Shown piece by piece: positions 2,342 to 46,400 of a stretch of 64,000 nucleotides of DNA; position 1 is the first letter of the stretch; every line of letters starts with the position of its first letter. The position numbers were made by a program, and so were the translations under genes. The DNA lies in NCBI GenBank assembly GCA_021464415.1, contig CM038468.1:34274969-34338968 (forward strand), in the 5' to 3' direction. The stretch is from Lonicera japonica (taxonomy: Eukaryota > Streptophyta > Magnoliopsida > Dipsacales > Caprifoliaceae). The notes beneath the pieces are model-generated. The model was not told the origin of the DNA. It did no database searches and saw only the letters and a program-made list of their open reading frames with translations.

Positions 2342-5300
2342 CTAGCATAAATCACGCAAAACAAAATCCGAAAGCCAAACCGGGACATCAGACCCCCAAG
2401 AAAGGCGAGAATCAGCACGAATAGCAAAAGCAGCTAACGAATTGGCCGCCTCATTCGCGGATCGTAAAACATGAGAACAAGACACCTCAGAAAAGGATTT
2501 AGCAAGATCTAAGAAGTCTAGAATAAACACCCCTACATCCGACTTCGGCGGAATCTTAGACAGAACCATATTCACCACCTGCAGAGAATCACTGTTAATT
2601 TCGACAGACCGCAAACCCAACAGAGAGGCAAAACGCAGCCCCTCTAAGAGTGCAAGGGCCTCTGCCTCTACCGCCCCTAAACAGGCTGGAACTGGAATCG
2701 CCGTAGCACCAATAACTCCTCCCCTCTCATCCCAACAAATCACCTCCACCCCAAACCGACTGGAGATTGGATTAAACGCTGCGTCCACATTAATTTTCAC
2801 ACAACCCACTGCCGGTTTTACCCACGCTGCCACAATCAAAACTGGAGTAGAAACCCTTGATCTAATCGCCTTTAAGAAAGACTGAAGGTAGACTTCGGCC
2901 GCAGCAAGTAAAGCATCACCAGATCTGTCCAACCGACCCCGTACTCTCTCATTTCGGTCCGACCAAATATACCATGCCAATAGCGCGAAAAAACCCATCT
3001 TGCTGCTACCCCTGGACTGATGCAACTCCGAACAAAGATCCCCAAAGTTACCCCACCTGATCTCTGAATTGTATCCATCAACAAATCTTCACTTAGCCCA
3101 AATCTCCCGTACCATCGGACACGCCCACAACGCATGAAATACAGTTTCGCGGCCATTCCTACACCGAATGCAAAGGGTATTAGATACCACCCTCTTCCTG
3201 AACAGGGCCATGTTAGTAAGTAAAAGGTCCAAGGATGCACGCCACAAAAATACCCGAACTTTATTCGGTACCTGAAGATTCCACAATGCTTTCCACCACA
3301 ACCTGAGAGGGACCGAGGAACCAGAGCTCGTATTTGGCGCCAAACGAGCAACCCGATAGCCACTGCGAACTGAATATTCCCCCGATGAATTGAAATGCCA
3401 AACCCGGATGTCCTCCCTCACACTAGACCCCACCGGGATACGTAGGATGTCAGGGACTTCCACTTCTAGGAACCATGAGCGCACCTTTTGCGAATCCCAA
3501 ACGCCAGTAGGAAGGATTAAATCACTCACCAGGGCATCACAATGCATATCCCCCGGTGACCATGCTTAAAAGACCAAGGACGGGGAACCCATCGGTCATG
3601 AAACACTCGAATATTGTTACCGTTCCCCACTCGCCACCTAATACCCTTCAGGAGGTGGGACCGACCCCACCAGATCCCCCGCCACATAAGCGATCCATTC
3701 TTCCGAATCTCGTTCTCAAGAAAGTCACATGAGGGAAAGTATTTCTTCTTCAGGAACTGAGCCAAAAAAGACTCCGGCTCTCGCATGATACGCCACCCAA
3801 CTTTCGCCAACATAGCCCTATTGAAAGCACCTAAATCCTTGAATCCCATACCTCCCTCCCCCTTCAGAGCACACATTCTCTCCCACGAAGCCCATAACCT
3901 CACCAGATGACCCCACCAGAATCTGGCACAGAGAGATTGAATCTCCTTGCACAAAGACTCGGGGAACCGGATGCAGGACATGAAATAGTTTGGGATAGCT
4001 TGCAGAACAGCCTTAATCAGGATCTCCTTACCCCCCTCGAGAAAAATCGCCTCGGCCCCAGCCTCTGATCTTTTTCAGAACCCTCTCCTTAATCTTTCTC
4101 GACACCTCCCTTTTACTTCTACCCAAACATAAAGGCATTCCCAAGTATTTAGAGAATCGATCAATCAACTCCATCCCTGCCACCCTCGAGCATGCTCTAC
4201 GCTTCCTAAGGCTGAGATTTGGGCTACACGTTAGGCTAGATTTATCAAAGTTAACCCGCTGTCCCAAAGCCTCCTTATATCTACACTGTCCCGAAACATC
4301 CGACACTGCCGCGGACCCCCTTCCAGAAGATCATACTATCATCGGCAAGGAAGAGGTGCGACAAATTAACTCCCCCATGAACCACGGCAAACCCCGCCAA
4401 TACTCGGGAATTGATTGCCTCCCTGATCAGACTGTCTAACCCTTCCGAACATAGTAAAAACAGATGCAGCGAGAGCGGATCCCCTTGTTGAATGCCCCTC
4501 TGAGGCCTAGCCGAGCCAGAACGGGCACCATCAGAATGGACGAATATGAAACTGAAGAAACGCGCTCCATCATCCAAGCAATCCATGTATCACTAAAGCC
4601 CAATTGAGTCATAATAGCCTGTAAAAAACCCCACTTGACCCTATCATAGGCTTTACTCATATCGAGCTTAGCCGCCATCAGACCCTCCACACCAGTTTTT
4701 TTTTATACAGGTAATTCAGAGATTCAAAAGCCATGACAACATTATCAATGATCAGACGCCCCTGAACAAAAGCACTCTGATTCGGGGAGATAATACTCGG
4801 GAGAATCTGCCTCAATCTATTAGATAAGACCTTAGAAATAATTTTGTACGTCACATTACATAAACTGATAGGCCGAAAGTCAGATAATCGCATTGGCTTA
4901 GGAATTTTAGGAATCAACACAATATTCGTAGCATTAATAGCCGCAAGGGATATACCTGAGAAGAGAAAATCCCTGCACATCCTTAAAAGATTATGCTTCA
5001 CCACATCCCAATATTTCTGAAAGAACAGCGGGGGGAACCCATCCGGCTTTGGAGATTTTGTCGGACCCATCTGAAACAATGCCACCCTAACCTCCTCTTC
5101 CAAAACCTCCGCACATAGCCTTGCATTCATCTCATCCGAAACCCTAGGGGCCACACACCTGGTAACCCGCTCCATGGATGCTACAGACGCGAATGATAAT
5201 GAAAAAAGACTCCCAAAATACTCCTTCATCACCCTCATCATTCCCTCAAGGGAAGTATGAAGAACCCCGTTCTGATCCTGGAGGCCCTCAATAAAATTCT

Positions 5301-6430
5301 TACGCCTTCTACGGGACGCGCGCTGATGGAAATACTTTGTGTTACGGTTCCCATCCTTCAACCACTCCGCTTTACCACGCTGACGCCAATACACCTCCTC
5401 TTGGTCCAACAAGTCCGTAACTTCCTTTTCAAGGTTCTTGACTCTAACAAAAAACTCATCATTAATAGGGCGTGACCAGGCCTCTTCGAGCAGCGCCTGT
5501 TTCTGCCGTAACCGAGATGAAAAACCACGAAAGACTTGGTGATTCCAATTCGTCAACTCCCTAGTACATTTACCCAAAGCCTCTTGCACACAACCAATCG
5601 CAGATTGACCCGAAACCCTCCCTCGGCCCCACGTCGAGGCGACTAAACTATCACAAGCCTCATATCTCGACTAAGCTTGCTCGAAGAAAAACCGCTTGGG
5701 ACTCCTGAATCGCGAATTAGATCGATCCCAACCTTCGTCTGCAAAGATATCTCAACCATCCAGTGGTCAGAAAAACCAAAGCCCAAATGGTTAACCACGC
5801 CGTGAGGGAACAGATTCCTCCAGCTAGTCGAACAAACACCCCTATCTAATCTCTCTGCCAACGACTGATCACCGACCCCTCGTTTCCATGTGAACTTTGG
5901 CCCATGAAAACCCATATCCAGCAAGGAACAATCTGCCAAAGCCTCTGAAAAAAGAGACATCTGTTGGAAAGGCCTATCATTGCCTCCCCGCTTCTCCGCC
6001 CGCACAGAATCTCGTTAAAATCACCCACACAAAGCCACAGAAGCGAACTCTGAAAACTAAGTCGACGAAGCAATTCCCAAGATAAGTGCCGCAAATGAGT
6101 AACTGGCTGCCCATAAAAACCCATGAATCTCCAAGAGACCCCATCCTCTGCACTAATAACCGCATCAATGTGGGACGACGAGAATGACCGAATATCCACC
6201 GACAGACCATCTCTCCAAAATAAGGCTAGATCGCCAGCAAAACCAACCCAACTAACACCGAAACAATAATGAAACTGAAGCCGAACACGAAATATCTCCA
6301 GTTGATTCACCAACATCTTAGTCTCCATGAGGAAAACTAAGTCGGGAGCTTTAGAAGACAGCACTTTACAAAGTGATGCGAATGCCTGAGGGTTCCCAAG
6401 CCCTCGGACGTTCCAGCTTAGAAGATTCAT
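2342..6430 (-). pseudogene. LINE ORF2: endonuclease, reverse transcriptase, RNase H, multiply frameshifted
   Basis: In order from 6430 the visible parts are: EEP endonuclease (MNLLSWNVRGLGNP, FLMETKM, LCVGDFNEIL); reverse transcriptase at about 5000-4300 (FRPISLCNVTYKIISKVL, AKLDMSKAYDRVKW, GIQQGDPLS, and LADD where FADD is usual); a zf-RVT block at about 3300-3090 (PNKVRVFLWRA, CIRCRNGRETVFHALWACP); and a plant-type RNase H (KINVDAAF, INSDSLQVV) ending at 2342. At least six frame changes separate these pieces, and a TGA at 3090-3088 splits zf-RVT from RNase H. The family performs target-primed reverse transcription. This copy cannot make the enzyme. Confidence 0.88.
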
Positions 6431-7763
6431 GGCGCCCGGCGGGGCTGCACTCCAGCTGCCACCGATGAATCCATCCCTCCGACAACCTGCCCCTTATCTG
6501 CACCCCCAATGGTTCCCCTAGACCGCTTAGTCGTCGTCACATCATCCGACTTATCACCCCTCCTTTTAGCCCCTACTTGAGGCCCGTTCTCCATTATCAT
6601 CAAATCCCTCCCCCGTTCAATCTTTTTTCTAGTCCAGACCCGCTTAGGGGAGGAGGAAGAAGTATGTACCGGCTTCTTCTTCTTCGAACCTGTCCTAACA
6701 CCCACCAGCCTCACCCCCACATCTCCCTCTTCCACTGCCGTCACCTCCTTTTCCCCACCAGCCGTTAACCCACCCGACAAGCCCATTGGCAGTGCAACCA
6801 ATTCACGTAGTGCATGCTCTTCCGACCCTGTACTAGGAGCCTCACCATGCAGGTCATACCCCACCACATCAGAACCAATCGGAACGTCAGTGAGTCCTTG
6901 CATATCTGCATTAACGGTGCCAAATTACTCTCATTAGCGCCGGACCGAGACGCCGAAGAACTGCCAGAACCCGACGAAGCCTTACTCCCACGCCTGTTTA
7001 TGACCTCTTCCCGAGTTACAGACACACCACCACCACGGAGCCACATACGGTAAGGTCTTGTCCCATCACGCTCTGTCGGTGATAAACTGATATACTTAGT
7101 ACAATCTTTGAAACCGTGGCCAATACATCCACATTCGAAGCAAAAATTCGGCAATGGTTCATATGACACAGGAACCCACACCGGCGACGTACCAACTTGT
7201 AATCCAACCATCACCCCACGCTTGAGGGGTTTAGTTATATCCATCAGAATCCTAACCCGTACAAACTTCCCTAGACCGTCATTATTCATCCCCACATCTA
7301 CGTCCTCCACTACTCCTATCTTGCCACCAGTCACCGTCGCAACCTCTCGTGAGTGACAGAGGAGCGGAAGATTGTACAAACGCACCCAAAATCTCTCATG
7401 TGAAAACTGCATAGTTGATGGTTGAACAGTGCCATCCACACGTTGAATACAAACCAACAAATGCTCAAAGTTCCAGGGACCTTTGCGGAGAACCCACGCA
7501 ACATCATCAGCCCGAGCGAAGGTTAAAGAGAAAGTATTACGGCCTGCTTCTGTAAGAGAGAACTCGAGTCCCCAAGCCTTCCTCATAGCAGCGCGAAATC
7601 CCTCTCGGTTGATCTGCTTGGCCGTAAAAACCCTCCCCATCAGAACCAGTTCTTCTAATCCTCTATACTTACATAACAATTCATCACCAACCATTGCAGC
7701 GTCTCGCTCCTCTTCTGTTAAGGAAACGACCCTCATCATGGCCTCTAAATCATGATCGTCCAT
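6427..7763 (-). pseudogene. LINE ORF1: DUF4283 / CCHC nucleic-acid-binding protein, frameshifted
   Basis: Starting at ATG 7763, the N-terminal about 190 residues match the DUF4283 type found in plant L1 ORF1 (FRAAMRKAWG, LRKGPWNFEHLLVCIQR, RFWVRLYNLPLLC). A zinc knuckle follows, CFECGCIGHGFKDC, and then a serine-rich tail. Near 6900 the frame is lost. The downstream frame, a basic tail with SKKKKP and KRSRG, continues to a TGA at 6429-6427. ORF1 proteins of this family bind the element RNA. The stop overlaps the ATG of ORF2 as ATGA. The upstream in-frame TTG at 7799 is not used here, because ATG at 7763 begins the conserved region. Confidence 0.82.
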
Positions 7764-7960
7764 CACAGCCACGGAGAAACAATAAACAAAACAAAACAAA
7801 CGGCAGCCTAACCACAGAATCTTCCAACGCCCTACCAGACAAGAGCACTCCGTAGGGGAGAAATCCTAGGAACGAACCTAGAAAGAAAACCCTAGACACG
7901 CTAGAGAGAGAAAGTTCTCATAGGAAACCCTAGAGAGAGACATCATCTCTCCGTATTCAA

Positions 7961-12886: not shown

Positions 12887-14629
12887 ATGTTTTCTAAATC
12901 CAAGTCTATGTCCGCGTCGTCTTCTAAAACTCTTACTCCCACTGAGTCTTTTAGGTCTAGTACTTCCAGTAAAGATAAGATCAAGTCTTTATATGAAATT
13001 ACCCATTTACCTGTAGAACAGATTCCAGAAACCAGGTTAACCATCACAAACCCTTATCATGTGTTCCAAAAACCCTCTTCAGAGTCTTATTTTAAAAGAG
13101 TCAGACAGTTGGTCTCATTAGACAAATCTAAACTTCCAGTTCGTGAATTTGTTTAGTGTACCCTTTTTGATTCTTTGTTTGTTAAATCCGGCCATGACGA
13201 ACAGTTTTTTACTGTTCCCTTCTCTACAGAAATACCCCGCATAGCCTTATCCCAAGGTTATACCCATATGCATTTTGGAGCCATCCGATTTGCTATCACT
13301 TTCCATGGACGAAAAGGATTAGAAGCAGTTGCCAGAATTGCCCTTGTTGACTCCAGGCTCACAAATTATCAACAGGCTATTCTTGGAAATGTCCAAGCTA
13401 CGTTAAATGCAGGAACGGTGTTCTTTACACTGTATCCCAATTTTAATGTTCCTCTCAATGATCCATTCGTCTGTTCAGCATTAAAAATCCAGGTTCAAAT
13501 CACTGGTGTTTCAATGGTCCCAGGCACAGCAGCAGCTACCATCCATCAGCAGTTGGTCTACCGTGTACAAAATTATTCCTATGATTTATGTATACCCGGA
13601 TCTTCTACATCCGAAGCTCTCATGCTCACCATTGATTCTGATGCATCTCATACAGCTAAATATGTCCCCAGACAGCTTACTCGTCCTGAACTTGTTAAGT
13701 TGTTACCAGAAGTATGGGTTACTTCCTATGAAAAGCTCCAAGAACAAATTAATACGGAACCTTTTCAGCAAACAAACCCTACTTACCTCCGCAGAGCTGA
13801 CAAGCAGATAGAGATGAGATTCAATAGTCCCCGAGTCTCTTCATCTTCCCCAGAGCGGAACCCCTTTCAAACTGAGCTGAATATGATGCACGAAATCCGT
13901 CGTTTGCCTACGGATCCTGTTTTCCAAGCAGATCCATTGGTTATTCTTTACTTTGACAAGTATGGAAAACCTGCATATCAAGGCAAAAATGAAAAAGGTC
14001 ACATATGGTACGATGTGTGCTATTGTGATGACTGTGAAGAATTAGCCTATGAGGCAGAGCTAGATCCCAAGGAATTAAAGCTATATAGACAAAAGAAGGC
14101 TGGCAAGGCCTTAAATTCTCAGCAAATCCTTGAAGAACGGTATCGACCAGGTGATAATACCGTTGGTCTCTTAGGAGAACCAAGTGGCAAGTTTGATTAC
14201 TATGTCATTTATGGTGAAAAACCCCTACCCATACCTTCTCCAGAAACCACTCCTTGTGCTCCATCACCACCTCTAAATAACCCAAAACCCCCTGAACCTA
14301 CACCCCAACGCCTTTCTCCTTATACCCAAAAGGCCCTCAAGGCTCTTGGCAGACCATACCGTCAACCATTCCCATCTCAGCCACAACCAGCTCCTGTTCC
14401 CCGACCAAAACCAATTTCTTGTTACCTCATGTCCCAAGAAACTCCTAATCATGATTTTCCTCCACAAGAAGATTTTGATAACCTTTCTACCCAAACCACC
14501 CATAAATGGAAGATACAAAACCCCACTTCCATTGGATCTGATGGACAAGTCAAAAAACTCTCAGCAGCAGAAGCGGCCCTCAATTGGCAAGCAGAAAATG
14601 CTATTGCCCAGAATAAACTCCTTGCTTAA
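12887..14629 (+). pseudogene. Viral movement protein (30K type) and following linker, with in-frame stops
   Basis: The ATG at 12887 opens a frame that stops at TAG 13154-13156 and resumes in the same frame to a TAA at 14627-14629. The 30K movement-protein core lies at about 13240-13510 (HMHFGAIRFAITF, IALVDSRLTNYQ, FFTLYPNFNVPLNDP). Such proteins widen plasmodesmata for cell-to-cell spread. A cysteine motif (CYCDDCEE, about 14016) and a proline-rich stretch follow. The last part (EAALNWQAENAIAQNK) begins a coiled coil that continues beyond the stop. The TAA at 14627 is also present in the inverted copy, so it predates that duplication or belongs to the original viral layout. Confidence 0.8.
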
Positions 14630-15151
14630 ATTGCTTCCCAGACAAAGCATATCAGTTCACGTGTTTCTTCTCTAACTACTATTGAAGAAGCCTTTGCAGA
14701 TATCAAAATGAGAATTAAAGTTCTCAATGATCAAATGCGTACTGTGGCTAGTACTGTTAGCGATTTTGCTCGCACAGCTGACTTCTTCAGAGATTCTGAA
14801 AGTGAAATTCGATCTCTCAAAGTTCAACTTGAATCCCTTGAAAGAAGTGAAGCCATCAAACAAGCTGCTATTCATCAACCTCCCCAGCCAGTACACCCTC
14901 AGTCCGACTTTCCAAACTATTCGGTGTTTTACCCCCCAGAAAGACCTGTTACTACTTCCTATAACCCAGCAGAATATTCTCTTTCTGGAAAAACCCAAAC
15001 TCAATCCATAAACCTTTGGGATGAACCACCCAAAAGAAGGTTACCTCATTGGTCGACTTCTCCTCCCAAACCAAAACCAAAGTTTGTCCAACCCAAATCC
15101 AATTATACCTATAAAACCAAACACCCAGACCAAGTTGATTTTTCAAAACCC
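13529..15151 (+). repeat. Viral inverted repeat, left arm
   Basis: These 1623 bases are the inverse of 18563-20185, which has exactly the same length. Comparison of the translated arms shows about ten amino-acid differences over 541 codons (for example H/Y, Y/H, C/F and R/Q near the start), so nucleotide identity is very high. The arm runs from the middle of the movement protein into the coat-region linker, and both arms carry the TAA at the position of 14627. Confidence 0.93.
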
Positions 15152-16027
15152 TTTCGAGCAGTTACTCCTCCACCACCAGCCAGACAAGCCAGAGGAATTG
15201 TTCTCCATGAACAAAATCCAACTCCCCTACAAACTGTCTCCCCTCCGTCACAGCCACCACAGTTTGTCTCCCATACCACTCCTAAAACTACCCCTTCAGC
15301 CTATACCCCTCCAGCTGAACCACCTGATGTTATCCAAGGTTTTTCCTCCAAACCTTTGGATATGTTTACTATGGAAGCCTTTAAAAATCATTCTGTCAAT
15401 CAGATAGGATCTTTTCTCAAGGCTCTCACTCTCCCAGACCGTGAACCTGTTAAAACTGATTCAAATGACTTATTCCAAGCCTTTGATCAGATTTATTCCA
15501 CTCAACCCACACCACAACCTGAACAACCGCAAGAACCCATGGTTGAGGATCCACCCGACCCAGTAAATGTCCCTCTTAACCAACCACCGCCTCAAGCAAA
15601 CCATGCTCATGATAATCATGTCCGTTTCACCCTTGATGATCTAAAGCCAAATCAATGGCGTGACCGATTTTTTCAGTTCAAAGCATGGATGCTTGCTGAC
15701 AATGAGCTCTATGATCTACGTTCCGTGATAAAAAGATTTTTAGCTTGCGTTGTTGGTCGATTACATGATTGGTATGATGCACTTGGCCCCTACAGACAAT
15801 TGCAGTTTCAGCAACTCTCTTCAATTGATCTTTTCCTTGGAAACATTTACAATGAATTTCTTGGAAATCCCAGCAAATTTTCTGATATTGCCCGTACTGA
15901 ATTCATGGGAATGAAGTGTTGCTCCTTGCAAGAAAAGGATTTAGAACGTCATTATGATAGAATGTCAAAAAGATTCTATACTATTGGCGGTCTAGATGAC
16001 CTCAATCTGAAACAAATCTTCTTCTAA
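14708..16027 (+). pseudogene. Viral coat-protein region
   Basis: This continues the same frame as the movement-protein part. It begins with a coiled coil (about 14710-14850) and a proline-rich, low-complexity linker. The segment from about 15620 to 16020 (VRFTLDDLKPNQWRDRFFQF, FLGNIYNEFLG) resembles the capsid core of petuvirus-like polyproteins. A TAA at 16025-16027 breaks the frame, and coding similarity resumes in the same frame at once. The capsid assignment rests on order and style, so it is less sure than the movement protein or RT. Confidence 0.68.
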
Positions 16028-16072
16028 TCTTTCCCAGATGCTTTAGTTACTGAAGCACAGAAAACCCTGAAG

Positions 16073-16900
16073 ATGCAGAACATTGAGCTTAAAGATCTCT
16101 CTGTTGGTCCTATTTATGAGCACTTGCTAGATTCTGTTGAACGCATTTGCAATCACAAGAAACTTATGGATGATATGGAAAAAACCAACAAGATGCTCAA
16201 ATCCGCCTGCAACAAAGATCATTGGAAGATCAAGTGTAAGAACAAAGAAAGCTGTGATTGTTCTCAACACAAGAAAGCCTACAAGAAGAAATATCAGAAC
16301 CATTCCTCTCGTCGCAACAAACATGTTGATGATACTTTTGTCAAACCATTCAAAAGACAGAAGTTCAAACGCAAGAAGTTCAAGAAGTTCAAGTTTGTCA
16401 AAAAACGAAACTTCAGAGGAAAAAAATCTGATAAATGTTTCTTATGCCACAAGCCAGGCCACTTTGCAAAGAACTGCCCTGATTCTACAAAGAAGACACA
16501 ATTCATGAATCTTCTCCATCAACTTGCACCTGAAATTGCAGAATCAGATGTTGAATCAGTTCTCTCAACCCAAGATGAAGCCTCCCAAGGATGTCTCATG
16601 CAACTAGCCTTCACTGAATCTGAAGCCTCAGATGTTGAATCCAGTACTCCAAGTGAAGCAGAAAGTTCAGAAATCTCCACTGATAATGAGCACCAAGAAG
16701 CAGTCCGTTCTTTACAACAGCTTGCTTATACCCAAGAAGAATGTTTCATTGTCAATTCCCCTCATGCCACTGTGAAAATATTCCCTGAACCATATTCTAA
16801 ACCAATAATTGTTCTAGCCCTCTTTGACACTGGTTCTACTAGAACCGTGATTAACCTCAGTTTACTCCCTTCGGAAATATGGAAGCCATGCCATATATAG
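16073..16900 (+). pseudogene. Viral capsid C-terminus, zinc knuckle and start of protease
   Basis: A very basic stretch (about 16330-16420, many KK and KF pairs) is followed by a CCHC knuckle, CFLCHKPGHFAKNCP (16435-16479), which binds RNA in this family. An acidic serine/glutamate-rich linker follows, then an aspartic protease active site, LFDTGSTRTV (16830-16859). The frame is lost at about 16880 and continues in another frame. The protease would release the structural and replication proteins from the polyprotein. Confidence 0.82.
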
Positions 16901-18020
16901 CCTTTCAAGTTGCTAATGGTGAAATCCTCTATGTTGACAAAGTCAGTAAACCAATCCTTATACAGTTATTTCCTGGCCTTCGAATTAAACACTCAGTATA
17001 TGGCAGTAATGTTACCCAAAAGGAACTAATGATAGGATGGGACCTTATCAAGAAAATACCAGTCCAATTTGCTGATAAAGGACTCAGGTACAAAAAGCAG
17101 TTCCTCCCATGGCATGATCCAGATGCAGCTTTCATGATCTATCAAGCTGCTCCCGCATATCCAATTGATCCAGGGATATCATTGGATATTTTAAGAAGAA
17201 ATCTTGTCACAATGTCATGTGCAGAATCACATGTGGATTTCCTCACCAAATGTCAGAACCCGCTTTGGCGAAATAGCAAGTTCTTCGTCACACTTCCCTT
17301 CAAACTCAATGAAGATGTAAATCCGACAAAAGCATCTCATTCTGGAATGAACCCAGAACACCAGTCCCTTGCTCTTCAAGAGTTAATTTCTCTTAAACAA
17401 CAGCAGTTTATTGAAGAAACAACTTCTCCATGGGCGTATGAAACATTTTATGTGAATAAGCGATCTGAACAAATCAGAGGAAAAATGAGGCTAGTGATCA
17501 ACTACCAACCGTTAAACTATTTTCTAGCCAGTGACAAATTCCCATTACCCCAGAAACACTCCCTGTTTAGCCACCTTTCAAATGCAAACATATTCTCCAA
17601 ATTTGATTTGAAAGCTGGATTTTGGCAGTTAGGCATCACCCCCACTGATCGCCCAAAGACAGCATTTTGCATTCCAGGTTTTCGCTATCAATGGACAGTA
17701 ATGCCCTTTGGATTGAAAAATGCCCCGTCTGTTTTCCAAAAAACCATGATGTCTATCTTTGAACCTATAGCAGCAAATGCATTAATTTACATTGATGACA
17801 TTTTTTTCTTTAGCCCGAATGAAGCAGAACATCTCAAGCTCCTTCACCATTTCCATCACATAGTCCTATCTCATGGAATTCTGAAAAGAAGATGGTTATT
17901 GGTACTCCAGAAATTGAGTTCCTTGGAATGATGATCAAAAATGGCAAGTTCCAGCTCCAACCTCACATTTATAAGGATTTACAGAAATTCCCAGACAAGC
18001 TAACAAACAAAACTAAATGG
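16879..18020 (+). pseudogene. Viral protease end and reverse transcriptase, truncated
   Basis: The frame from 16879 contains the remainder of the protease and then reverse transcriptase: LVINYQPLN (about 17494), FSKFDLKAGFWQLGI (17596-17640), MPFGLKNAPSVFQ, and the catalytic YIDD box at about 17788-17799. The frame changes near 17885, and the other frame continues with EFLGMMIKNGKFQLQPH to about 18015. There the family similarity ends abruptly. The RNase H domain that normally follows is absent, so the copy cannot replicate. Confidence 0.85.
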
Positions 18021-18051: not shown

Positions 18052-18562
18052 ATTATAAAACCTAAGTGTAAATCGGGATAGGATCGGGAGAACATAGTAC
18101 ATATAAAAGAGAACAGGCATGCTTAATAATAACTAAACACAAACCAGTACCAAGGAAGAAGAAGAGACTCAAAATTAGATAAAATAAGATTGGCATCTTA
18201 TTATATTATAAAAGACTCTCATGGAGAGAGACTTGGTACAACACTCGAATTTCTCACACTAGAAACTTACTTACTTCACACCTCACAGATCTCCTGCTTA
18301 GAAATGAAAATGCTTGCTCCTTTTATTAGGGAAGGGCTAAGCAACACGATAAACAAAGGACAACAGCTGTCCGACATCTTAAAAGCAAAAGTTTTAAAGA
18401 TTCTAATTTACTTTTACAAAAGTGACATAAAGCTGAAGAGCACTCAAAATAAAGCTAAATCACTTAAAACAAAAGTGACATAAAGTGAAAGCACTCAAAA
18501 TAAAGACACCGAAAGTAGATTCTTCACATGCAGCTTGTCTGGGGAGTGGAGAATGACATCAT
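18052..18562. other. Spacer inside the viral inverted repeat, possibly viral intergenic DNA in reverse
   Basis: No protein similarity is visible. Read on the minus strand, it has a TAATAAAAGG box (about 18340) and repeated units TTTATGTCACTTTTG and TTTTGAGTGCT (about 18415-18510). Such features could belong to a pararetroviral intergenic promoter. It does not visibly match the leader at 12060-12880, so the viral origin is an inference from position only. Confidence 0.35.
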
Positions 18563-20185
18563 GGGTTTTGAAAAATCAACTTGGTCTGGGTGTTTGGTTT
18601 TATAGGTATAATTGGATTTGGGTTGGACAAACTTTGGTTTTGGTTTGGGAGGAGAAGTCGACCAAGGAGGTAACCTTCTTTTGGGTGGTTCATCCCAAAG
18701 GTTTATGGATTGAGTTTGGGTTTTTCTAGAAAGAGAATATTCTGCTGGGTTATAGGAAGTAGTAACAGGTCTTTCTGGGGGGTAAAACACCGAATAGTTT
18801 GGAAAGTCGGACTGAGGGTGTACTGGCTGGGGAGGTTGATGAATAGCAGCTTGTTTGATGGCTTCACTTCTTTCAAGGGATTCAAGTTGAACTTTGAGAG
18901 ATCGAATTTCACTTTCAGAATCTCTGAAGAAGTCAGCTGTGCGAGCAAAATCGCTAACAGTACTAGCCACAGTACGCATTTGATCATTGAGAACTTTAAT
19001 TCTCATTTTGATATCTGCAATGGCTTCTTCAATAGTAGTTAGAGAAGAAACACGTGAACTGATATGCTTTGTCTGGGAAGCAATTTAAGCAAGGAGTTTA
19101 TTCTGGGCAATAGCATTTTCTGCTTGCCAATTGAGGGCCGCTTCTGCTGCTGAGAGTTTTTTGACTTGTCCATCAGATCCAATGGAAGTGGGGTTTTGTA
19201 TCTTCCATTTATGGGTGGTTTGGGTAGAAAGGTTATCAAAATCTTCTTGTGGAGGAAAATCATGATTAGGAGTTTCTTGGGACATGAGGTAACAAGAAAT
19301 TGGTTTTGGTCGGGGAACAGGAGCTGGTTGTGGCTGAGATGGGAATGGTTGACGGTATGGTCTGCCAAGAGCCTTGAGGGCCTTTTGGGTATAAGGAGAA
19401 AGGCGTTGGGGTGTAGGTTCAGGGGGTTCTGCGTTATTTAGAGGTGGTGATGGAGCACAAGGAGTGGTTTCTGGAGAAGGTATGGGTAGGGGTTTTTCAC
19501 CATAAGTGACATAGTAATCAAACTTGCCACTTGGTTCTCCTAAGAGACCAACGGTATTATCACCTGGTCGATACCGTTCTTCAAGGATTTGCTGAGAATT
19601 TAAGGCCTTGCCAGCCTTCTTTTGTCTATATAGCTTTAATTCCTTGGGATCTAGCTCTGCCTCATAGGCTAATTCTTCACAGTCATCACAATAGCACACA
19701 TCGTACCATATGTGACCTTTTTCATTTTTGCCTTGATATGCAGGTTTTCCATACTTGTCAAAGTAAAGAATAACCAATGGATCTGCTTGGAAAATAGGAT
19801 CCGTAGGCAAACGACGGATTTCGTGCATCATATTCAGCTCAGTTTGAAAGGGGTTCCGCTCTGGGGAAGATGAAGAGACTTGGGGACTATTGAATCTCAT
19901 CTCTATCTGCTTGTCAGCTCTGCGGAGGTAAGTAGGGTTTGTTTGCTGAAAAGGTTCCGTATTAATTTGTTCTTGGAGCTTTTCATAGGAAGTAACCCAT
20001 ACTTCTGGTAACAACTTAACAAGTTCAGGACGAGTAAGCTGTCTGGGGACATATTTAGCTGTATGAGATGCATCAGAATCAATGGTGAGCATGAGAGCTT
20101 CGGATGTAGAAGATCCGGGTATAAATAAATCATAGGAATGATTTTGTACACGGTAGACCAACTGCTGATAGATGGTAGCTGCTGC
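18563..20185 (-). repeat. Viral inverted repeat, right arm (movement protein/coat fragment)
   Basis: This is the reverse-orientation copy of 13529-15151. On the minus strand it reads through the movement-protein C-terminal part and linker to the shared TAA, then the coiled coil and proline-rich linker. It ends at the SKP of the coat region, where unrelated sequence follows. With the left arm and a 3411-bp spacer, a read-through transcript could fold into a long double-stranded RNA. Confidence 0.93.
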
Positions 20186-20196
20186 CCGTACTGAAT

Positions 20197-20208
20197 TCAT
20201 AAGGGGAT
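20197..20208. repeat. 12-bp direct repeat, right
   Basis: This is the second copy of TCATAAGGGGAT, 11 bp beyond the end of the inverted viral arm. Close by, TGCCCGTACTGA (20183-20194) and its exact inverse TCAGTACGGGCA (20248-20259) form a small 12-bp inverted repeat. This points to a complex join at this end. Confidence 0.6.
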
Positions 20209-20568
20209 GATGTGAAGGACGGGCATATATATATATGTCTCAATTTATCAGTACGGGCATATATACATTCGAATAATATATAATATATATATATATTATT
20301 GAAGCGATGATGTGTTGGTCCCTTTAAAAGAAAAAAAGGTAGAGAATGGATTTTAAATCTCGGTAGATCCTGTGATTAACCGCGCTCTCAACCACTGAAC
20401 CGAACTTAGATCTCTTGTATCGTCCATTTATAATAATACTAGAGTATTATAGGAGTGAACTTAATTATACTATTTTAAAGTAATAGTTGAATATGGGTGT
20501 TGAGGGGAGTCTTAGTCTTGGAAAAGTCAGAGCATCATGAAATTATTTGTTTATTGTAATTAAGATTA
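20209..20568. other. AT-rich junction DNA, no gene
   Basis: This stretch contains TA-rich runs (20222-20300) and short direct and inverted copies of GTACGGGCATATAT. No coding or RNA feature is visible up to the target duplication of the next element. Confidence 0.5.
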
Positions 20569-20573
20569 GTGAC

Positions 20574-21399
20574 TGATGGTGTCAAAATCTAGAAATAGAT
20601 AATTAACCAATCAATAAGCGAATATCGGTGAATAAAAAATAAATGCGGCACAATAATGAACACATGACTTTTTTTTAAGGTAGGTTCCCCCGGTAGCGCT
20701 TATGCTATTCCAGTGGTACGTCCTCCTTTTGTGTGTGCTTGTGTTGTATTAGCTCAAAGGCAATCAATTTGGATGATAATACAAGCTACCAACTTCTCTC
20801 TCTCTATAATTTCCTTAATTCTATTTATAAGTATAGAATTAGGATTACAAATATTTCAACATAATAAATAATAAACTGGGTATGAGAGAGAGTGTATAAG
20901 GGTTGTTGGTATTTTTTGGAGTATGAAAATAGAGAGTATAAGACCCTTCTATTTTTTGGGGTATGAAAATAGAGAGTATAAGACCCTTCTATTTTTGGGA
21001 GTATGAAAAGAGAGAGTATATGACTCCTCTATTTCTTCCCGAATTGGCTTGTATTTGTATTACCAATGGCTTTATATCTCTTAGAAGAGATAGATGGATA
21101 TTAAGAGAGAAAGAAGAGATGTTTTTGTTGTGTGTTGAATGAATGAATGGTGGGGGGGTATTTATAGGTAAATGGAGAATGGCAAAAACCGTAAATTTGA
21201 TAAAAATGAATGGCATAAGTTAATCTTTGGTGGAGGTAGGTGAGGTAGGTGAGATGTGGTAGGTGTGGTAGGTGAGGTGTGGTAGGTGAGGAGGTAAAAA
21301 CGAGATTTTACAGGGGGTAAAATTGGAATTTTACCGGAGGTAAAAAATGTTGAAAATTATTTTTGTAGGCCAATGGTAAATTAATATTTACCCCCATCA
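20574..21399 (-). repeat. LTR (3' LTR of the LBD-carrying element)
   Basis: It is 826 bp, against 840 bp for the other copy, with scattered substitutions and small indels (roughly 97 percent identical by eye). It contains a threefold short repeat around GAGTATGAAAATAGAGAG (about 20885-21030) and GGTAGGTGAG-type repeats (21230-21290). The length difference lies mostly in that second repeat block. Confidence 0.92.
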
Positions 21400-21417
21400 A
21401 TTGCCCCCTATCCTTAT
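21400..21417 (-). promoter_or_regulatory. Polypurine tract
   Basis: On the minus strand AAGGATAGGGGGCAAT lies directly before the LTR start TGATGGGGG. This is the expected place and composition for the plus-strand primer. It fixes the minus orientation of the element. Confidence 0.75.
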
Positions 21418-21419
21418 CA

Positions 21420-21870
21420 TTTAGCTCGGATGATCTGATTGGCGAGGATATCCTTCAATCCGGGAGCTAGTAGTAGCTCTGAGCTCTGATGCTTGAGATG
21501 TCTTAGGCCTGAATCCTTGACCGTAAGTTTGTGGAGCTTGGAACATTAATGTGTAAAGCTAGCTAGACTTTGATCATTAGTCTTAGAGTTTCAGAACATC
21601 ATTGTGTAAGGCTGGCTAGACGTTGATCTCGAGTCTTAGTTCAAGGACGTTAAATCTCGGATGCTAGTCATTGAGCTCAAAATATCAATGTGTAGAGCTT
21701 TTAGAGCTTCAGAACATCATTGTGTAAGGCTGGCTAGACGTTGATCTCGAGTCGTAGTCCAATGATGCTAGATCTCGGATGCTAGTCGTTGAGCTCGAAA
21801 CATCAATGTGTAGAACTCGTTAGACATTAGATGCAAGTCGTAGAGCTCGGAACATTAATATGTAAAGCTC
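21420..21870. repeat. Tandem repeats, about 118-bp unit
   Basis: TCAGAACATCATTGTGTAAG followed by GCTGGCTAGACGTTGATC occurs at 21591 and again at 21709. More diverged partial units lie before and after (GAACATTAATGTGTAAAGCT at 21541 and a near copy at 21850). Such arrays are common in the untranslated parts of Ty3 elements near the 3' LTR. Confidence 0.8.
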
Positions 21871-21944
21871 ACTATACTTTTGATCATAAATAATTTGATT
21901 CTACTCGGGCCTTTTTTCAACTCTTTATTTCATATACACATATA

Positions 21945-22250
21945 TATTTTTTCTTTTTCTTTTTCTTTTTTTTTTCGCCCGTCTTTTCTTTTCTTTTTTT
22001 CTCTTTTTTTTTGCACCTTTCTTTTCTTTTCTTTTTCTTTTGTCGGCCTCTTTCGGCCGTTTTTCGGTCCCTTTTTTTTTTCTGTCGGAGGCTCCTCTAT
22101 CTCTCTCTTATTCCCCTTCTCCCTTCTTCCTCTTCATCTTCTTCCCCCTCTTCATCTCCCTCTCCCTCTCACTCTCCTTCTTCGTATTCCTCTCACTCTC
22201 CTTCTTCGTCTTCCTCTCCCTCGAGACCCAACCCCTTTCTTCCATCACCA
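21945..22250 (+). repeat. Long polypyrimidine stretch upstream of the LBD frame
   Basis: Runs of CTTTT, TTTTTC and then CTCTCTCCCT units cover about 300 bp and end about 70 bp before the LBD ATG. Open frames here are products of low complexity and not genes. The stretch may act as leader or promoter-proximal DNA of the LBD gene. I see no clear TATA box. Confidence 0.6.
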
Positions 22251-22316
22251 TCCCTTTCCTCCAACGCCATTTTTCTCTTTTGTAATAAGTTTTTCTTACA
22301 AAAGTAAACAAAAATA

Positions 22317-23140
22317 ATGTCAAACACTCCATTTTTTTCAGGTCGTCCATGTGTGGCTTGTGCTCATAGCCCCAAGAGATGTCCTCTAGCTTGTGATTAT
22401 GCTAGAATTTTTCCAAATGTGATTGATCGTGAGGACTATCACACAATCTTCACTGTTTTCGGGGTGAGGAATGTTGCATCTTTTTTGCAACGTGTCCCCG
22501 AAGATCGACTTCTCGAGGCTCTTAGTTCGTATCTTCTTGAAGCCACGGCGAGGATTGAGAATCCCGCTAGAGGTTGTACTGCTCTCCTTGCTTCTTTTGA
22601 ACAGAAGGTGGAAGAGTTACAAGCATGGGTGACGGCATTAGAGGCTCGATTAGGAGGGGGTCTTCCTGTGTTAACCCGTTATGCTCCTTTGCTCCTCTTG
22701 GAGGTTCTTCGAGGTTCCCTTCGTCGGCCGAAAATAACGTGCCAAATGTTATTCCGACTGCCGTGAATCTTTCGGAACCTATTCCCGGAGGTTTTTTGAG
22801 GCTCCTTATGTCGGAAGAGGGTGTACAGAATATTCTTTCGACTACCACGAATCTTGTAGAAAATGGGGCTTCTCTGACTGAAGTGAATTTGCCGTCATTT
22901 CAGAATCCGTCCTATAACCAGGCTACCTTGGACTCCGTTTACCAGGCGGCCTCGGAAGGTTTTTTATCGCAATCTTCACTAGATGATTTTGTTGCAGATT
23001 TTGCTAAAACAGCGGGCCCTGATTGGACAGCTTCGGGGAATATCCGCCATGATTTTTTTGATTCTTCTTCTGATTTAAGTACTATTTTGAATTTTGATGC
23101 TGATGATCTTCAGATTCTTCAGCCTTTTTTGAGTGACTAG
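22317..23140 (+). CDS. LBD (LOB-domain) transcription factor carried by a retrotransposon, probable frameshift
   Basis: ATG at 22317 opens a 149-codon frame. Cysteines 12, 15, 22 and 26 give the C-X2-C-X6-C-X3-C zinc motif of plant LOB-domain proteins. A GAS-type block follows (FGVRNVASFLQRVP, about 48-61), then the NPARGC block and a leucine-zipper-like helix (FEQKVEELQAWVTALEARL). This is the complete order of a class I LOB domain. In this family it binds DNA and controls organ-boundary and root genes. After the domain the frame ends early (22766), while another frame from about 22660 to 23140 is open and continues in similar style (VQNILSTTTNLVENG, then an acidic C-terminus with SLDDFVADF). 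A one-base change in the G-run near 22655 is the likely break. It lies antisense to the host element. Confidence 0.8.
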
Positions 23141-23225
23141 ATAATGTGTATCTCTAGTGAGGGTTTTGTAAAAATGTTCCGGAGATGTTCCACTTGTAGC
23201 CCTTGTATGTTGATAGCAATTTTTC

Positions 23226-23480
23226 CAAAATCCTTAGTTTCTTAAAAGGAAAAATTGTTCTATTTGGCTAAGTCTTGAGTAGAGTCATGCTCACTTCTGA
23301 CTTAGGCAAATTCTGACAATTTTCTCATTTAAGTCCTTGGTTTCTTAAAAGGAAAATTTGTTGTTTTTGCTAAGTTTTGAGTAGAGTCTTGCTCCCTTCT
23401 AACTTTAGGTAAATTGCTAAGTTTTGAGTAGAGTCTTGATCCCTTCTAACTTTAGGCAAATTCTGACAATTTTTCTCAAT
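23226..23480. repeat. Tandem repeats downstream of the LBD frame
   Basis: Units with TCTTAAAAGGAAAA, GCTAAGTTTTGAGTAGAGTC and TTGCTCCCTTCTAACTTTAGG occur three times with partial truncation. No coding potential is seen. Confidence 0.75.
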
Positions 23481-23860
23481 TATTACCAGGGAACGTCAAA
23501 ATCTTGGTCTCTGACCAGTGGTACAGCAATAGATGATCATTCTCAGCCAGGTCTCTTTGGGTTGAGGTGGTCCTGCTGTTGTCTGATAGACTTCAAAATT
23601 GCATTCGGCTTTGTGGAAGTTTGATATCCGCTGAAAATTTCTTCAATTTATTTCTTGTGATTTTTCGGATGAACTTGATAAGAATTACATTCAGGAAGTA
23701 ATCTTTTGAAAGCTCATCAATTTTTTCTACAATAAAAATTATTGATCGTAAGAAAATGATACGACTTTAGATATATTAAAACAAAGATAAAAAATCATAT
23801 ATGAGTTATCAAAAAATAACTTATCTCTTTTTTGGATTTTATCCCCTTGGGTAACCGGAT

Positions 23861-24310
23861 TTTTGAATGATTATGCGCCTGTAAATATTGAGTTAGCATA
23901 AGCCTGTCGGATTTTTGCATTTTTTATCGCAGTGCCTTTGTATCCCGGTTTTGGACCCCGAGATGGCCAAATTTGAAAACGGATTGAACTGGAAAGTTGT
24001 AGATCTTGAAATTTTCTTCAAAATGGACTCCAGAATCACATGATTCGGAGTTTTGAACACAAAATTACGCGCCTGGTAATATTGAGTCACCGTAGGCCCG
24101 CGAGATTTCGTTCTAGAAAGTTTGTATCGAAGTTTTGAACCCCGAGATGGACGAATTTGAGAAACTCTTGAACTGAAAAGTTGTATCTCTTGAAATTTTA
24201 TTCAAAATGGACTCCAGAATTACATGATTTGGAGTTCTGAGCATAAAGTTATGCCCCCGAGAATATTGAGCTACGTAGTCCCGCGGGATTTCGAGCTTTT
24301 CACCGAAAAT
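23861..24310. repeat. Tandem repeats, about 183-bp unit
   Basis: CCCCGAGATGG(C/A)C(A/G)AATTTG occurs at about 23957 and 24140, and CAAAATGGACTCCAGAAT is repeated likewise. A third partial unit precedes the PBS. This is untranslated leader DNA of the retroelement in its own orientation. Confidence 0.78.
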
Positions 24311-24354
24311 TCACTTGTAATTTCTAAAGAACGAGAGCTTTAGAGAGCTTGTCG

Positions 24355-24372
24355 TTCCCACAGACGGCGCCA
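24355..24372 (-). other. Retrotransposon primer-binding-site motif
   Basis: TGGCGCCGTCTGTGGGAA on the minus strand starts two bases after the LTR end. This motif is typical of the start of the internal region in plant Ty3/gypsy elements. I do not assign the tRNA. Confidence 0.8.
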
Positions 24373-24374
24373 AC

Positions 24375-25214
24375 TGATGGTGTCAAAATCTAGAAATAGA
24401 TAATTAACCAATAAATAAGCGAATATCGGTGAATAAAAAATAAATGCGGCGCAATAATGAACACATGACTTTTTTTCTAAGGTAGGTTCCCCTGGCAGCG
24501 CTTATGCTATTCCAGTGGTACGTCCTCCTTTTGTGTGTGCTTGTGTTGTATTAGCTCAAAATCAATCAATTTGGATGATAATACAAGCTACCAACTTCTC
24601 TCTCTCTATAATTTCCTTAATTCTATTTATAAGTATAGAATTAGGATTACAAATATTTCAACAAAATAAATAATAAACTGGGTATGAGAGAGAGTGTATA
24701 AGGGTTGTTGGTATTTTTTGGAGTATGAAAATAGAGAGTATAAGACCCTTCTATTTTTTGGGGTATGAAAATAGAGAGTATAAGACCCTTCTATTTTTGG
24801 GAGTATGAAAAGAGAGAGTATATGACTCCTCTATTTCTTCCCGAATTGGCTTGTATTTGTATTGCCAATGGATTTATATCTCTTAAAAGAGATAGATGGA
24901 TATTAAGAGAGAAAGGAGAGATGTTTTTGTTGTGTGTTGAATGAATGAATGGTGGGGGGTATTTATAGGTAAATGGAGAATGGCAAAAACCGTAAATTTG
25001 ATAAAAATGAATGGCATAAGTTAATCTTTGGTGGAGGTAGGTGAGATGTGGTAGGTGTGGTAGGTGAGATGTGGTAGGTGAGGAGGTAAAAATGAGATTT
25101 TACCGGGGATAAAAACGAGATTTTACCGGGGGTAAAATTGGAATTTTACCGGAGGTAAAAAATGTTGAAAATTATTTTTGTAGGCCAATGGTAAATTAAT
25201 ATTTACCCCCATCA
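24375..25214 (-). repeat. LTR (5' LTR of the LBD-carrying element)
   Basis: It is 840 bp, a direct repeat of 20574-21399. It has one extra partial unit around 25090-25125 (GAGATTTTACCGGGG repeated). It is followed by the GTGAC target duplication at 25215. Confidence 0.92.
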
Positions 25215-25219
25215 GTGAC

Positions 25220-43477: not shown

Positions 43478-46400
43478 TCAATCTCGCTCCAACAAGATTT
43501 GGACGGAAGGCACGTGCCGGATTATGTAAGAGTCATCTCCTCGAACTTTATCTCCAAATGCCTTGGGCATACATTCAATCCTCAATGTTTGGAGTTTAGT
43601 GAGAAATTCCAGTCCTTCAGGAAGCCACTTCATTTTTTTGCAGTCCAAAATATTTAAAAAAGAAAGAACGGGTAAAGCTCCTTCATCCACTCGCCAATTC
43701 TCTAATTTCCTCAAGCACCCCAAATATAGACTTTTAAGTTGAGGAAAACCCCTAGCAGAACAAACCATTTCGTTTCCAACATATGCTTCAACCACTAATC
43801 TAAGAGATTTCAACTTCGGGAGCTTCTCTAGTGTTGTCATTGGGTCTTCCGTAAGTCCAGAGCTGTGTAAGGATATTTCGGTGAGGCTCATGGAGAAATG
43901 GTACTGACGATATTCTGGTATTTCGGTGAGGCTCATGGAGAAATGGTACTGACGATATTCTGGTAAGTTACCTATTTTCCCCTCTAGCTCCAGCCTCTCA
44001 AGACTATGGATCGTAAACACTTTTCTTGAGACAAGAAAGGGCTCTTCTTCCTCAAAATCAAGTATAATACGAAGGTATGTACATTGTAATTGGTGTGAAG
44101 TAACATTTAGATAGTTGACGATTCTTTCCATGTCCTCCTTACACCCCACCCTAACTGTTGCGTTCAAATTTCGTAATTTGGGCAACGTAAAGAGATCTCT
44201 CAGGACATTGTACTTACTTGTATCAAAATTCTTCAATATCTCTAGACGGCTCAATCCTTCTAATGTTAATTTTTCATTTATGTCATCAGGAAGATATAGA
44301 TGTCTTAGGCTTTCCAACTTCCACAATACATTCGGTATAGAAATATCTCCACCACGTATATCAAGGATTTGCAAGAATTGCAAGTTGCCTATTGATGATG
44401 GCAACTTCACATCCCAGCAGTTTCTGAAACTCAAGTACTTCAAGTGGATTAGTTTCCCGATTCCCTCTGGTATACTCTCCCCATCAAAGTCAAACCCCTC
44501 AAAATCTAAAACTCTAAGCAATTTGAATTCCTTGAGATGGGGTATATCTATTCGCAATCCGAAATAAATTGCAAGTTTACGTGTTTTAGTGATACCCGTT
44601 GATGAAGAAGATGAATCATGTACATTTCCATGTGATTGAGAATCTTCCCCCTTTCTCTTTGAGAGGCATAGTTCTCGCATGAGGTCATGAAGACGACAAG
44701 TTCCCCCTCGTTCCGATATTTTCCTCCACCATTCTTCATTTGATAATTTAACTTGGACCATGCTCCTTTGTGCTAGTTCCCCCAAATAGCGTTCAGCTAC
44801 ATCCATCATTGTTTCTCCTTCTCCTTTCTCTTTAGGATCTACCATTCCTTCAGCAATCCATAAAAGACATAGTTTTTCGATCCTCACATTATAATCTTCT
44901 CGAAAATTCCCCATATAAAGAAAGCAAGACTTTAATTGATATGGCAAGTCGTCATAACTTAAAGTAAGCACTTGTTTAATTCTTTGGTCTGGCGTATCTA
45001 TGCCTTCCCCCATCAAATACCGACCAAGACTATCATGCACACTCTTCCACTCTTTTAAGTCACGTCTATTGGCCAATAGTCCCCCGAGCACAATGATAGC
45101 AAGTGGTACACCCCCGCATGATCGTAGCATTTCCCTTCCTTTTTTCTCCATCTGAGTTTCAACTCTAGGCTCTGGATAACAAGAATAAATGACAACTTAA
45201 GAATAAAATTGATGCATATTGTTTGTTTGTTAGGCAACTAATGAGAATTCGAGGTGATCGTAACCAATTACTTACGAAAAATGTTTTAGGGAATGTTTGT
45301 TTTTTTAACCTCTGGATGTTGAAAGCTGAATTACTTTGCATTCTTAATAGTGAACAAAACTTTGATAGAAGAAATATGTTTGACTTTATTTGGGTCTGAA
45401 GGTTGAATAGATCACATTTTATGATTTAAACCTTATCATTACGGTATACATCAATAATTGACGAATAGAAAGAACACGGGCAACATTAGGAAAAAAATAA
45501 TCATTAAAGTAAAAATTAAGCATTCAACGCATGGCTTGCTTCTTAATGTTGAATGGTAAATTTTAATTCAATTAAGCATTAAGAGGTGAGAAAACAAACA
45601 CCAGTTTTACCATTTAATGCTGAATAGACTTCCATTGAGTATTAGACCGTCTCCAATGGTATAGACTAAAGTGTAAGTTAATAGTGTAAATTTAGCCTAT
45701 CAATAAAGGGAGAGCCATAGCGCGTAAAATGTAAAAACCACCCGCATGACATTTCTTATGTTGTGGCAATTTGAAGCAGCCATGTGTCGTTTCAGTGGTA
45801 ATTTCAGTGGAGATTTGAAGCAGCCACAGTAATTTTAGTGGATATTTGAAGCAGCCATCAGTGGATATTTGAAACAGCCATATGACATTTGTTACGTCGT
45901 GGCAATTTGAAGCAGCCATACGACATTTCTTATGTCGTGAGAGAGGGATTTTTTCACCCCATGACACATCATGTATCGTGGAAGTGCTCCATTCCTGCCC
46001 CGATATATGATACATCGTCTATTGTAAAATTTTGTTGACCTGCAAATTTAGCTTTCGTTTACACTACCAAATGGGGCAACTAGAAGTGGAAATTTCCACT
46101 TTTACCTCTTGCACTGCAAATGGTCTTTTAGGAGGTATAAACCAAAACTACCTTAAACTAATATTTTAACGGGATTATAAAAGTGTTACAAAAGGCGGTG
46201 CCCAAGCGGCACCTAGGCTCTAGACTGTGCTTAGGCACTTGATTAATCTCTGGATGAATTAGGCGGATTTAGGTGGCCGCTTAATCGTGTTTGGCAGGCT
46301 ACACAGATAAACGAGTTTCTTTTCTTTTTCTCTCTTTATTTTAAGAGCAACCATTTTTTTTTTTGTTAAAAAAAACCATTGTGATTTAAGAGAACGGAAG

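Follow-up and report, generated by a model that had tools for sequence, protein, structure and literature searches.

An antisense LOB-domain gene as a standing component of LTR retrotransposons in Lonicera japonica and a candidate regulator acting in trans

The window analysed here is a stretch of 64,000 nucleotides from Lonicera japonica (GenBank assembly GCA_021464415.1, contig CM038468.1, positions 34,274,969 to 34,338,968 of the forward strand). It contains a long terminal repeat (LTR) retrotransposon that carries a gene of the LBD (LOB-domain) transcription-factor family on the strand opposite to its own. The LBD gene is a standing component of this element family and not a one-off capture. 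The element has no gag-pol and is likely moved in trans by relatives from the Tat lineage of Ty3/gypsy elements; the antisense LBD that it has in common with them likely controls the transcription of the elements in trans. We hold this combined interpretation with slightly more confidence than doubt.

Loci cut from the same 886-Mb genome are designated below by L-numbers and related proteins by P-numbers. The counts given for each query cover the best-scored places of a longer candidate list. The features of the window element that the argument needs are as follows.

20574-25214, minus strand: LTR retrotransposon with paired LTRs (TG...CA), a 5-bp target site duplication (TSD), and sequences resembling a primer-binding site (PBS) and a polypurine tract (PPT) beside the LTRs
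20569..20573, unstranded: left copy of the TSD, GTGAC, read from the sequence
25215..25219, unstranded: right copy of the TSD, GTGAC, read from the sequence
20574..21399, minus strand: 3' LTR in element sense, TGATGG...CCATCA, 826 bp, by sequence comparison
24375..25214, minus strand: 5' LTR in element sense, TGATGG...CCATCA, 840 bp, by sequence comparison
21400..21413, minus strand: PPT-like sequence beside the 3' LTR; the identical 14 letters adjoin the left LTR of L067
24357..24374, minus strand: PBS-like sequence beside the 5' LTR, CCCACAGACGGCGCCAAC on the plus strand; its core is common to L069 and L071
22317..23140, plus strand: LBD gene, antisense to the element; frameshifted in the window copy but not in certain relatives, among them L015 (intact, 275 aa)
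22347..22634, plus strand: LOB domain with CX2CX6CX3C zinc motif (PF03195; match to PDB 5ly0 by sequence, via L015)
21941..21946, plus strand: TATA-box-like sequence of the LBD gene, a consensus match only
21947..22316, plus strand: pyrimidine-rich leader without ATG, present in 7/7 aligned copies

The first-pass annotation of the window, made from the letters alone, had given the paired LTRs, the GTGAC duplication, the PBS, the PPT and an internal region of 2975 bp (21400-24374), and all of these are right to the base. The two LTRs are 98.3% identical (Kimura two-parameter distance, K2P, 0.0173) in a comparison whose fuzzy match set both LTR starts 3 nt early. No gag or pol was found in the element, and its four other internal-region frames (65-110 aa) have no Pfam match at E 0.1.

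The same annotation had placed an LBD frame antisense to the element, which is borne out by a PF03195 match at 22317-23140 (E 6e-19, residues 11-106, 68.9 bits against a Pfam cut-off of 24.2). The domain stands as described. The frame itself is broken, which the annotation did not mention: it is open only to 22766, and a frameshift divides it into two overlapping open frames. The domain scores higher in the relatives L067 (83.9 bits) and L068 (81.3 bits) against the same cut-off, and the zinc motif has all four cysteines in 30 of 35 LBD copies. By eye, the alignment has the spacing of LX6LX3LX6L, the coiled-coil motif of class I LBD/AS2 proteins, but with V at the third place, so that the coiled coil is a putative one. 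The L015 protein matches the LOB domain of Ramosa2 (PDB 5ly0) at E 1.7e-13 over residues 8-109. The likeness to Ramosa2 is one of LOB-domain sequence, and the element protein has a C-terminal part of its own, which in most of 12 aligned proteins ends in an acidic stretch of the NFDADDLQIL type. An AlphaFold2 model of P0021 was poor (mean predicted local distance difference test, pLDDT, 40.6) and was not used. By its zinc motif and Pfam match, the element LBD is of the LBD/AS2 type, probably class I, with predicted DNA binding.

Upstream of the LBD gene, TATATA is found 305-431 nt before the ATG in all seven aligned copies (L012 left out). In each of the seven the stretch between the two has no ATG and consists of 80-84% pyrimidines. 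The TATA match may mark a promoter, which we call putative, as consensus likeness is no proof.

The LBD gene is abundant in the genome together with the LTRs. When the LBD DNA was used as a query, all 40 scored places (the best 40 of 1474, window included) matched over nearly the full length at an identity of at least 95%. At seven of nine other LTR sites the LBD region stands beside LTR sequence in the order of the window, at 91-97%; L013 and L014 have no LBD, the L015 stretch holds the right LTR only, and L012 carries an insertion. Among 30 LBD loci taken with 1.5-kb flanks, LTR pieces of at least 80 bp flank the LBD on both sides in 23 by manual tally, on one side in four (L027, L035, L041 and L045), and within range on neither side in three (L029, L032 and L048). 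The LTR query behind both comparisons overran the true LTR end by 17 bases. L029, reopened as L051, holds part of an LBD flanked by repeats that belong to a different LTR type, and no clear LTRs were found in L052. More distant copies include L066, with both LTRs at 89-91% and the LBD at 92%, and L065, with the left LTR at 77-91% and the LBD at 82%. A first LBD protein query gave 72-100% identity at the best 150 of 1986 places; because about 20 of its final residues were out of frame, its list favours copies with the break of the window. A second one (best 150 of 2250 places) gave many open frames of at least 214 aa.

Both element ends were readable at five of the nine LTR sites and unreadable at four. 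Each of the five has by eye its own, differing 5-bp TSD (ACTTT, ACGTG, ATGAG, TTAAT, CGACT). The different TSDs at these sites and in the window indicate that the LTRs and the LBD moved as a single unit. The first-pass annotation had left two options, a transduplicated host LBD gene or a standing component of a family. The second agrees with the counts above (40/40 places, 23/30 flanked loci, the same place at 7/9 LTR sites), and a unique one-off capture does not. The annotation had also named what would undo its interpretation, namely a lack of other copies together with solo LTRs joined to the LBD by assembly error; what we found is many copies with TSDs of their own. Three candidate explanations were thus dropped: a chance join or misassembly of LTRs and LBD is ruled out by the separate TSDs, two unrelated solo LTRs around the LBD were rejected, and a single capture unique to the window is ruled out by the LBD DNA and protein queries.

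At C8:18229587-18249327 a stretch of 20 kb holds five LBD places distributed over both strands, and open frames of more than 400 aa are present at two of these. They are perhaps nested or clustered elements.

A relative with gag-pol is known from the same genome. L067 and the adjoining L071 form a 10.1-kb element (C5:22266232-22276331) with LTRs that are 99.5% alike, the TSD ATAAT, and the same PBS and PPT cores as in the window. Its minus strand encodes gag, protease, reverse transcriptase (RT), RNase H, a second RNase H (RVT_3) and integrase in this order; the gag-pol frame is open in both stretches, which were read apart, with the codon spanning their border left out. Downstream of pol, before the 3' LTR, the element carries an intact LBD of about 230 aa in antisense orientation. 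In PMC6317226, an additional RNase H that sits after the first one and before integrase is given as a mark of angiosperm Tat (Ogre or Retand) elements. Its presence in L067 therefore assigns this element to the Tat lineage (Ogre/Retand type, Ty3/gypsy), in line with the pointer of the first-pass annotation to Tat elements with extra antisense frames. The annotation's description of the LBD as standing in place of gag-pol fails, since L067/L071 has both. Given this relative, the window element is best read as a gag-pol-less member that keeps the LTR ends, PBS, PPT and antisense gene; the Tat link of the window copy consists of likeness in LTR, PBS, PPT and LBD only.

With a query made of the LBD and the pol end, all 40 scored places (the best 40 of 2309, L067 included) have the two adjacent, 9 as a single piece and 31 in at least two pieces; places without an LBD may rank lower because the query contained it. 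In L070 an LBD stands beside decayed gag-pol pieces, which were recognised by eye through their likeness to L067; a 620-aa piece of L070 has no Pfam match.

The LBD gene is also found in a Ty1/copia-type element, which was unexpected and had no place in the account of the first-pass annotation. L068 has 1.7-kb LTRs (K2P 0.0036), the TSD ATATC, and a PBS of the tRNA-Met type with one mismatch to the pattern that we take to be that of tRNA-Met. Its minus strand holds a copia gag frame (PF14223, E 2.9e-27). Between gag and the 3' LTR lies an LBD, antisense and unbroken, whose LOB domain matches at E 8e-23. The Ty1/copia order of integrase before RT was not found in L068, which has no pol frame among its frames of at least 130 aa. 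L068 is a non-autonomous Ty1/copia-type element. Its interior as a query matched over nearly the whole 4.3 kb, at 93-100%, in 16 of 40 scored places (the best 40 of 7384, L068 included); these 16 span the LTR end, LBD and gag, and the openness of the frames was read in L068 only. Just past the LBD stop, from 3769 of L068 onward, the minus strand resembles by eye the start of the copia pre-integrase region, a pattern that would fit a replacement of pol by the LBD gene from this point on.

L068 resembles the Ty3 carriers mainly in one stretch. This stretch begins 260-300 bp before the LBD ATG and continues almost to the stop; it is interrupted by gaps after the LOB domain, and a small number of short matches lie further upstream. 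The 12-mer GTATAAAAAATC lies 302-347 nt upstream of the LBD in L067, L068 and L069. In a tree of LOB domains, which left out L056, the L068-type LBDs are united in a single clade (support 0.99), which groups with the Ty3-borne L070 and with P0009 (0.87). The shared stretch, the shared 12-mer and the grouping in the tree make it most likely that a Ty1 element received the LBD gene together with its upstream sequence from a Ty3 element, the direction being our inference.

A long branch at the root of this tree leads to four host proteins, all of one (LOB) type. A tree with host paralogues had been proposed by the first-pass annotation; the element LBDs are now placed relative to these four proteins, which makes their place among host LBDs a provisional one. 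Among the relatives of the window LBD protein, 19 of 20 come from Lonicera macranthoides, the best with 88-91% identity over 77-92% of the query. The best 120 of 2381 matches of a further protein search mostly bear LOB/LBD25-type names or no name.

Some of these relatives deserve mention in their own right. The L. macranthoides gene models P0036, P0038 and P0052 fuse an element LBD with PF13839, PF03171 and PF00005; such fusions are errors of annotation or else chimeric genes that arose through insertion. P0018, P0053, P0055 and P0061 are 38-54% identical relatives on short ENA or Logan contigs, and may show the LBD family in other plants.

Substitution patterns in the LBD frame differ between the lineages. 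Among L067, L069, L068 and L072-L074, omega (the ratio of nonsynonymous to synonymous rates) with transitions weighted is 0-0.59 for the LOB domain, and 0.30-0.72 when L070 is added; L058 and L009 were left out of the comparison of the LOB domain with the rest of the frame. Pairwise Nei-Gojobori (NG86) values, with transitions uncorrected, were not relied on. Along three non-overlapping paths (L067-L069, L068-L072 and L073-L074) the LOB domain has 26 nonsynonymous and 27 synonymous changes against a neutral ratio of 2.21:1 (p 0.002). L015, which belongs to the lineage of the window, gives 0.67-1.08 in the LOB domain against all seven others. We see in these values a sign that the LOB domain is constrained in lineages other than that of the window, and no such sign within the latter.

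The contrast bears on the question of whether the LBD is a passenger, i.e., a host gene captured once that has since hitch-hiked, its protein useless to the element and its broken and intact frames spread alike. Omega near 1 in the lineage of the window is what such a passenger should have, and the window and other copies have broken frames, yet the family amplified. We nevertheless find this explanation improbable. The constraint summed over the three paths speaks against it, as does the presence of the LBD next to pol at 40/40 scored places (a query that held the LBD may favour such places); moreover, the gene was also amplified in an unrelated element type, and two carriers with LTR pairs at least 99% alike, L067 and L068, have it in an open frame. 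The constraint is also relevant to a quite different explanation, in which the antisense transcript and not the protein lowers or times the sense RNA. In each of the three carrier types that were read (L067, L068 and the window) the LBD is indeed antisense and preceded by a TATA-like site, but a transcript alone needs no stronger constraint on the LOB domain than on the rest of the frame, and we consider this explanation very unlikely.

The most likely role of the LBD, judged from sequence, is that of a trans-acting regulator of the elements. A number of observations weigh against this role. In the lineage of the window, a 47-copy tree gives an omega of 1.13 (LOB domain) and 1.03 (rest) on internal branches and of 0.97 and 1.07 on terminal ones, without a supported value below 1 on this tree, and singleton and shared changes did not differ among 35 copies (p 0.28). 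Only 15 of 35 LBD copies are without a stop or gap in the frame, insertions being dropped. At the loci outside this lineage no constraint was found on the frame behind the LOB domain (omega 0.63-2.71). L072-L074 are LBDs of L068 type whose LBD sequence was compared without LTR context. The three paths were picked after the omega values were known, and singly they give p values of 0.085, 0.0003 and 0.26, one of them significant alone. Among the copia-type places, 24/40 match the gag side only, from a point some 60 bases beyond the LBD stop, and have no LBD. Finally, GCGGC-like words, which we take to be an LBD-type binding site, occur at one place in 16 of 20 LTRs, i.e., as one inherited site, and such a word also appears in 12% of shuffles of one LTR, which makes the site weak evidence.

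The relaxed evolution in the lineage of the window fits an LBD that acts in trans. Because the protein would act in this way, non-autonomous copies can lose the LBD and yet stay mobile.

The protein might instead act mainly on host genes, for example by promoting a dividing, dedifferentiated state in which retrotransposons get transcribed and inherited. LBD proteins are developmental regulators, and both the kept zinc motif and LOB domain and the sign of LOB-domain constraint in some lineages agree with such host manipulation. However, the element LBDs are far from the four sampled LOB-type host proteins, and the long branch between them means that the binding specificity may have changed. Host manipulation seems to us a minor possibility, though as far as sequence goes either elements or host genes may be the main targets.

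Under the regulator interpretation, the history and action of the gene could be as follows. An element would have captured a host LBD gene early. The gene would be transcribed from its own TATA-type promoter, against the element sense, and its DNA-binding, dimerising product would act on promoters of elements (or host genes) in a way that favours their expression. The whole gene would later have been transferred from a Ty3 to a Ty1 element. Carriers with gag-pol would keep the LBD, and non-autonomous ones could dispense with it in cis.

The window element also contains several repeats.

21583..21817, unstranded: tandem repeat, two 117-bp units, between the LBD leader and the 3' LTR
23245..23452, unstranded: 59-bp repeats downstream of the LBD stop
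23937..24270, unstranded: two 150-bp repeats with 184-bp spacing, 83% alike

Directly to the left of the element, two inverted pieces (window 13157-17931, plus strand, and 18524-20239, minus strand) hold frames like those of endogenous plant pararetroviruses, in which zinc knuckle, protease and reverse transcriptase were recognised by eye from the translation. Frames of the long interspersed nuclear element (LINE) type, with endonuclease, reverse transcriptase and RNase H by eye, lie at 1-1575 and 2342-7865, both on the minus strand. Frames at 43478-45196 and 46723-47793 (minus strand) look by eye like those of a resistance-type gene of the CC-NBS-LRR class (coiled coil, nucleotide-binding site, leucine-rich repeat; NLR).

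The LBD is a member of a transcription-factor family that has been studied well and whose fold is solved, which makes the role of such antisense genes directly testable. If the interpretation is true, the sharing of the gene and its upstream region by Ty3 and Ty1 elements is an unusual passage of an accessory gene between superfamilies. For plant genomics there is also a warning: many predicted "LBD genes" in such genomes may be parts of retrotransposons.

Extra frames in plant Ty3/gypsy retrotransposons are reportedly common in Tat elements (Steinbauerova et al., Genetica), and the elements described here likewise have an extra frame beyond gag-pol. Likeness to host genes is said to have been noted by the same authors for LOGL4 (Athila) and histone H3 (chromovirus) only, not for LBD. 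No title on an LBD in an LTR element was present among the literature matches listed, a scope mostly outside subscription papers.

The closest comparison is with Retand elements. According to Vicient 2025 (PMC11963269), a TRP28 (PF04195) frame lies antisense after pol and before the 3' LTR in 97% of Retand clusters, and a regulatory role is proposed for it; the paper gives TRP28 genes no relatives outside transposable elements and no established role. The words LOB, LBD and Lonicera are absent from the main text of PMC11963269. The elements studied here resemble Retand in several ways: an antisense frame follows pol ahead of the 3' LTR, the same region has tandem repeats, there are relatives that are non-autonomous, and the gag-pol member has a second RNase H placed after the first and before integrase. 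They differ in the antisense gene, which is an LBD of plant transcription-factor type here and TRP28 there: the antisense frame of L067 between pol and the 3' LTR is a LOB domain, and no TRP28 match was listed for five scanned frames of L067, L068 and L070.

Plant LTR retrotransposons are described in PMC13317346 as capturing and amplifying host sequence by gene transduction, and retroviruses, according to PMC11963269, usually carry their transduced genes in the sense of gag-pol. Host sequence captured and amplified is what the LBD has in common with plant gene transduction. In contrast to it, the LBD is antisense, has kept its upstream sequence, is fixed in a family with gag-pol and is found in two superfamilies.

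The gene of HBZ is situated beside the 3' LTR of human T-cell leukaemia virus type 1 (HTLV-1). HBZ and the antisense genes of related retroviruses are described as nuclear regulators coded antisense (PMC11963269). An antisense gene by the 3' LTR is likewise present here; we mean that it would work like HBZ and claim no homology. Our tentative proposal, which we put forward with some reserve, is that a plant developmental transcription factor has been turned into an element regulator: a portable LBD with its own promoter, kept under selection by autonomous Ty3 elements, that crossed to a Ty1 element, where it is likewise antisense, and may control the transcription of the element or of the host cell as HBZ does in HTLV-1.

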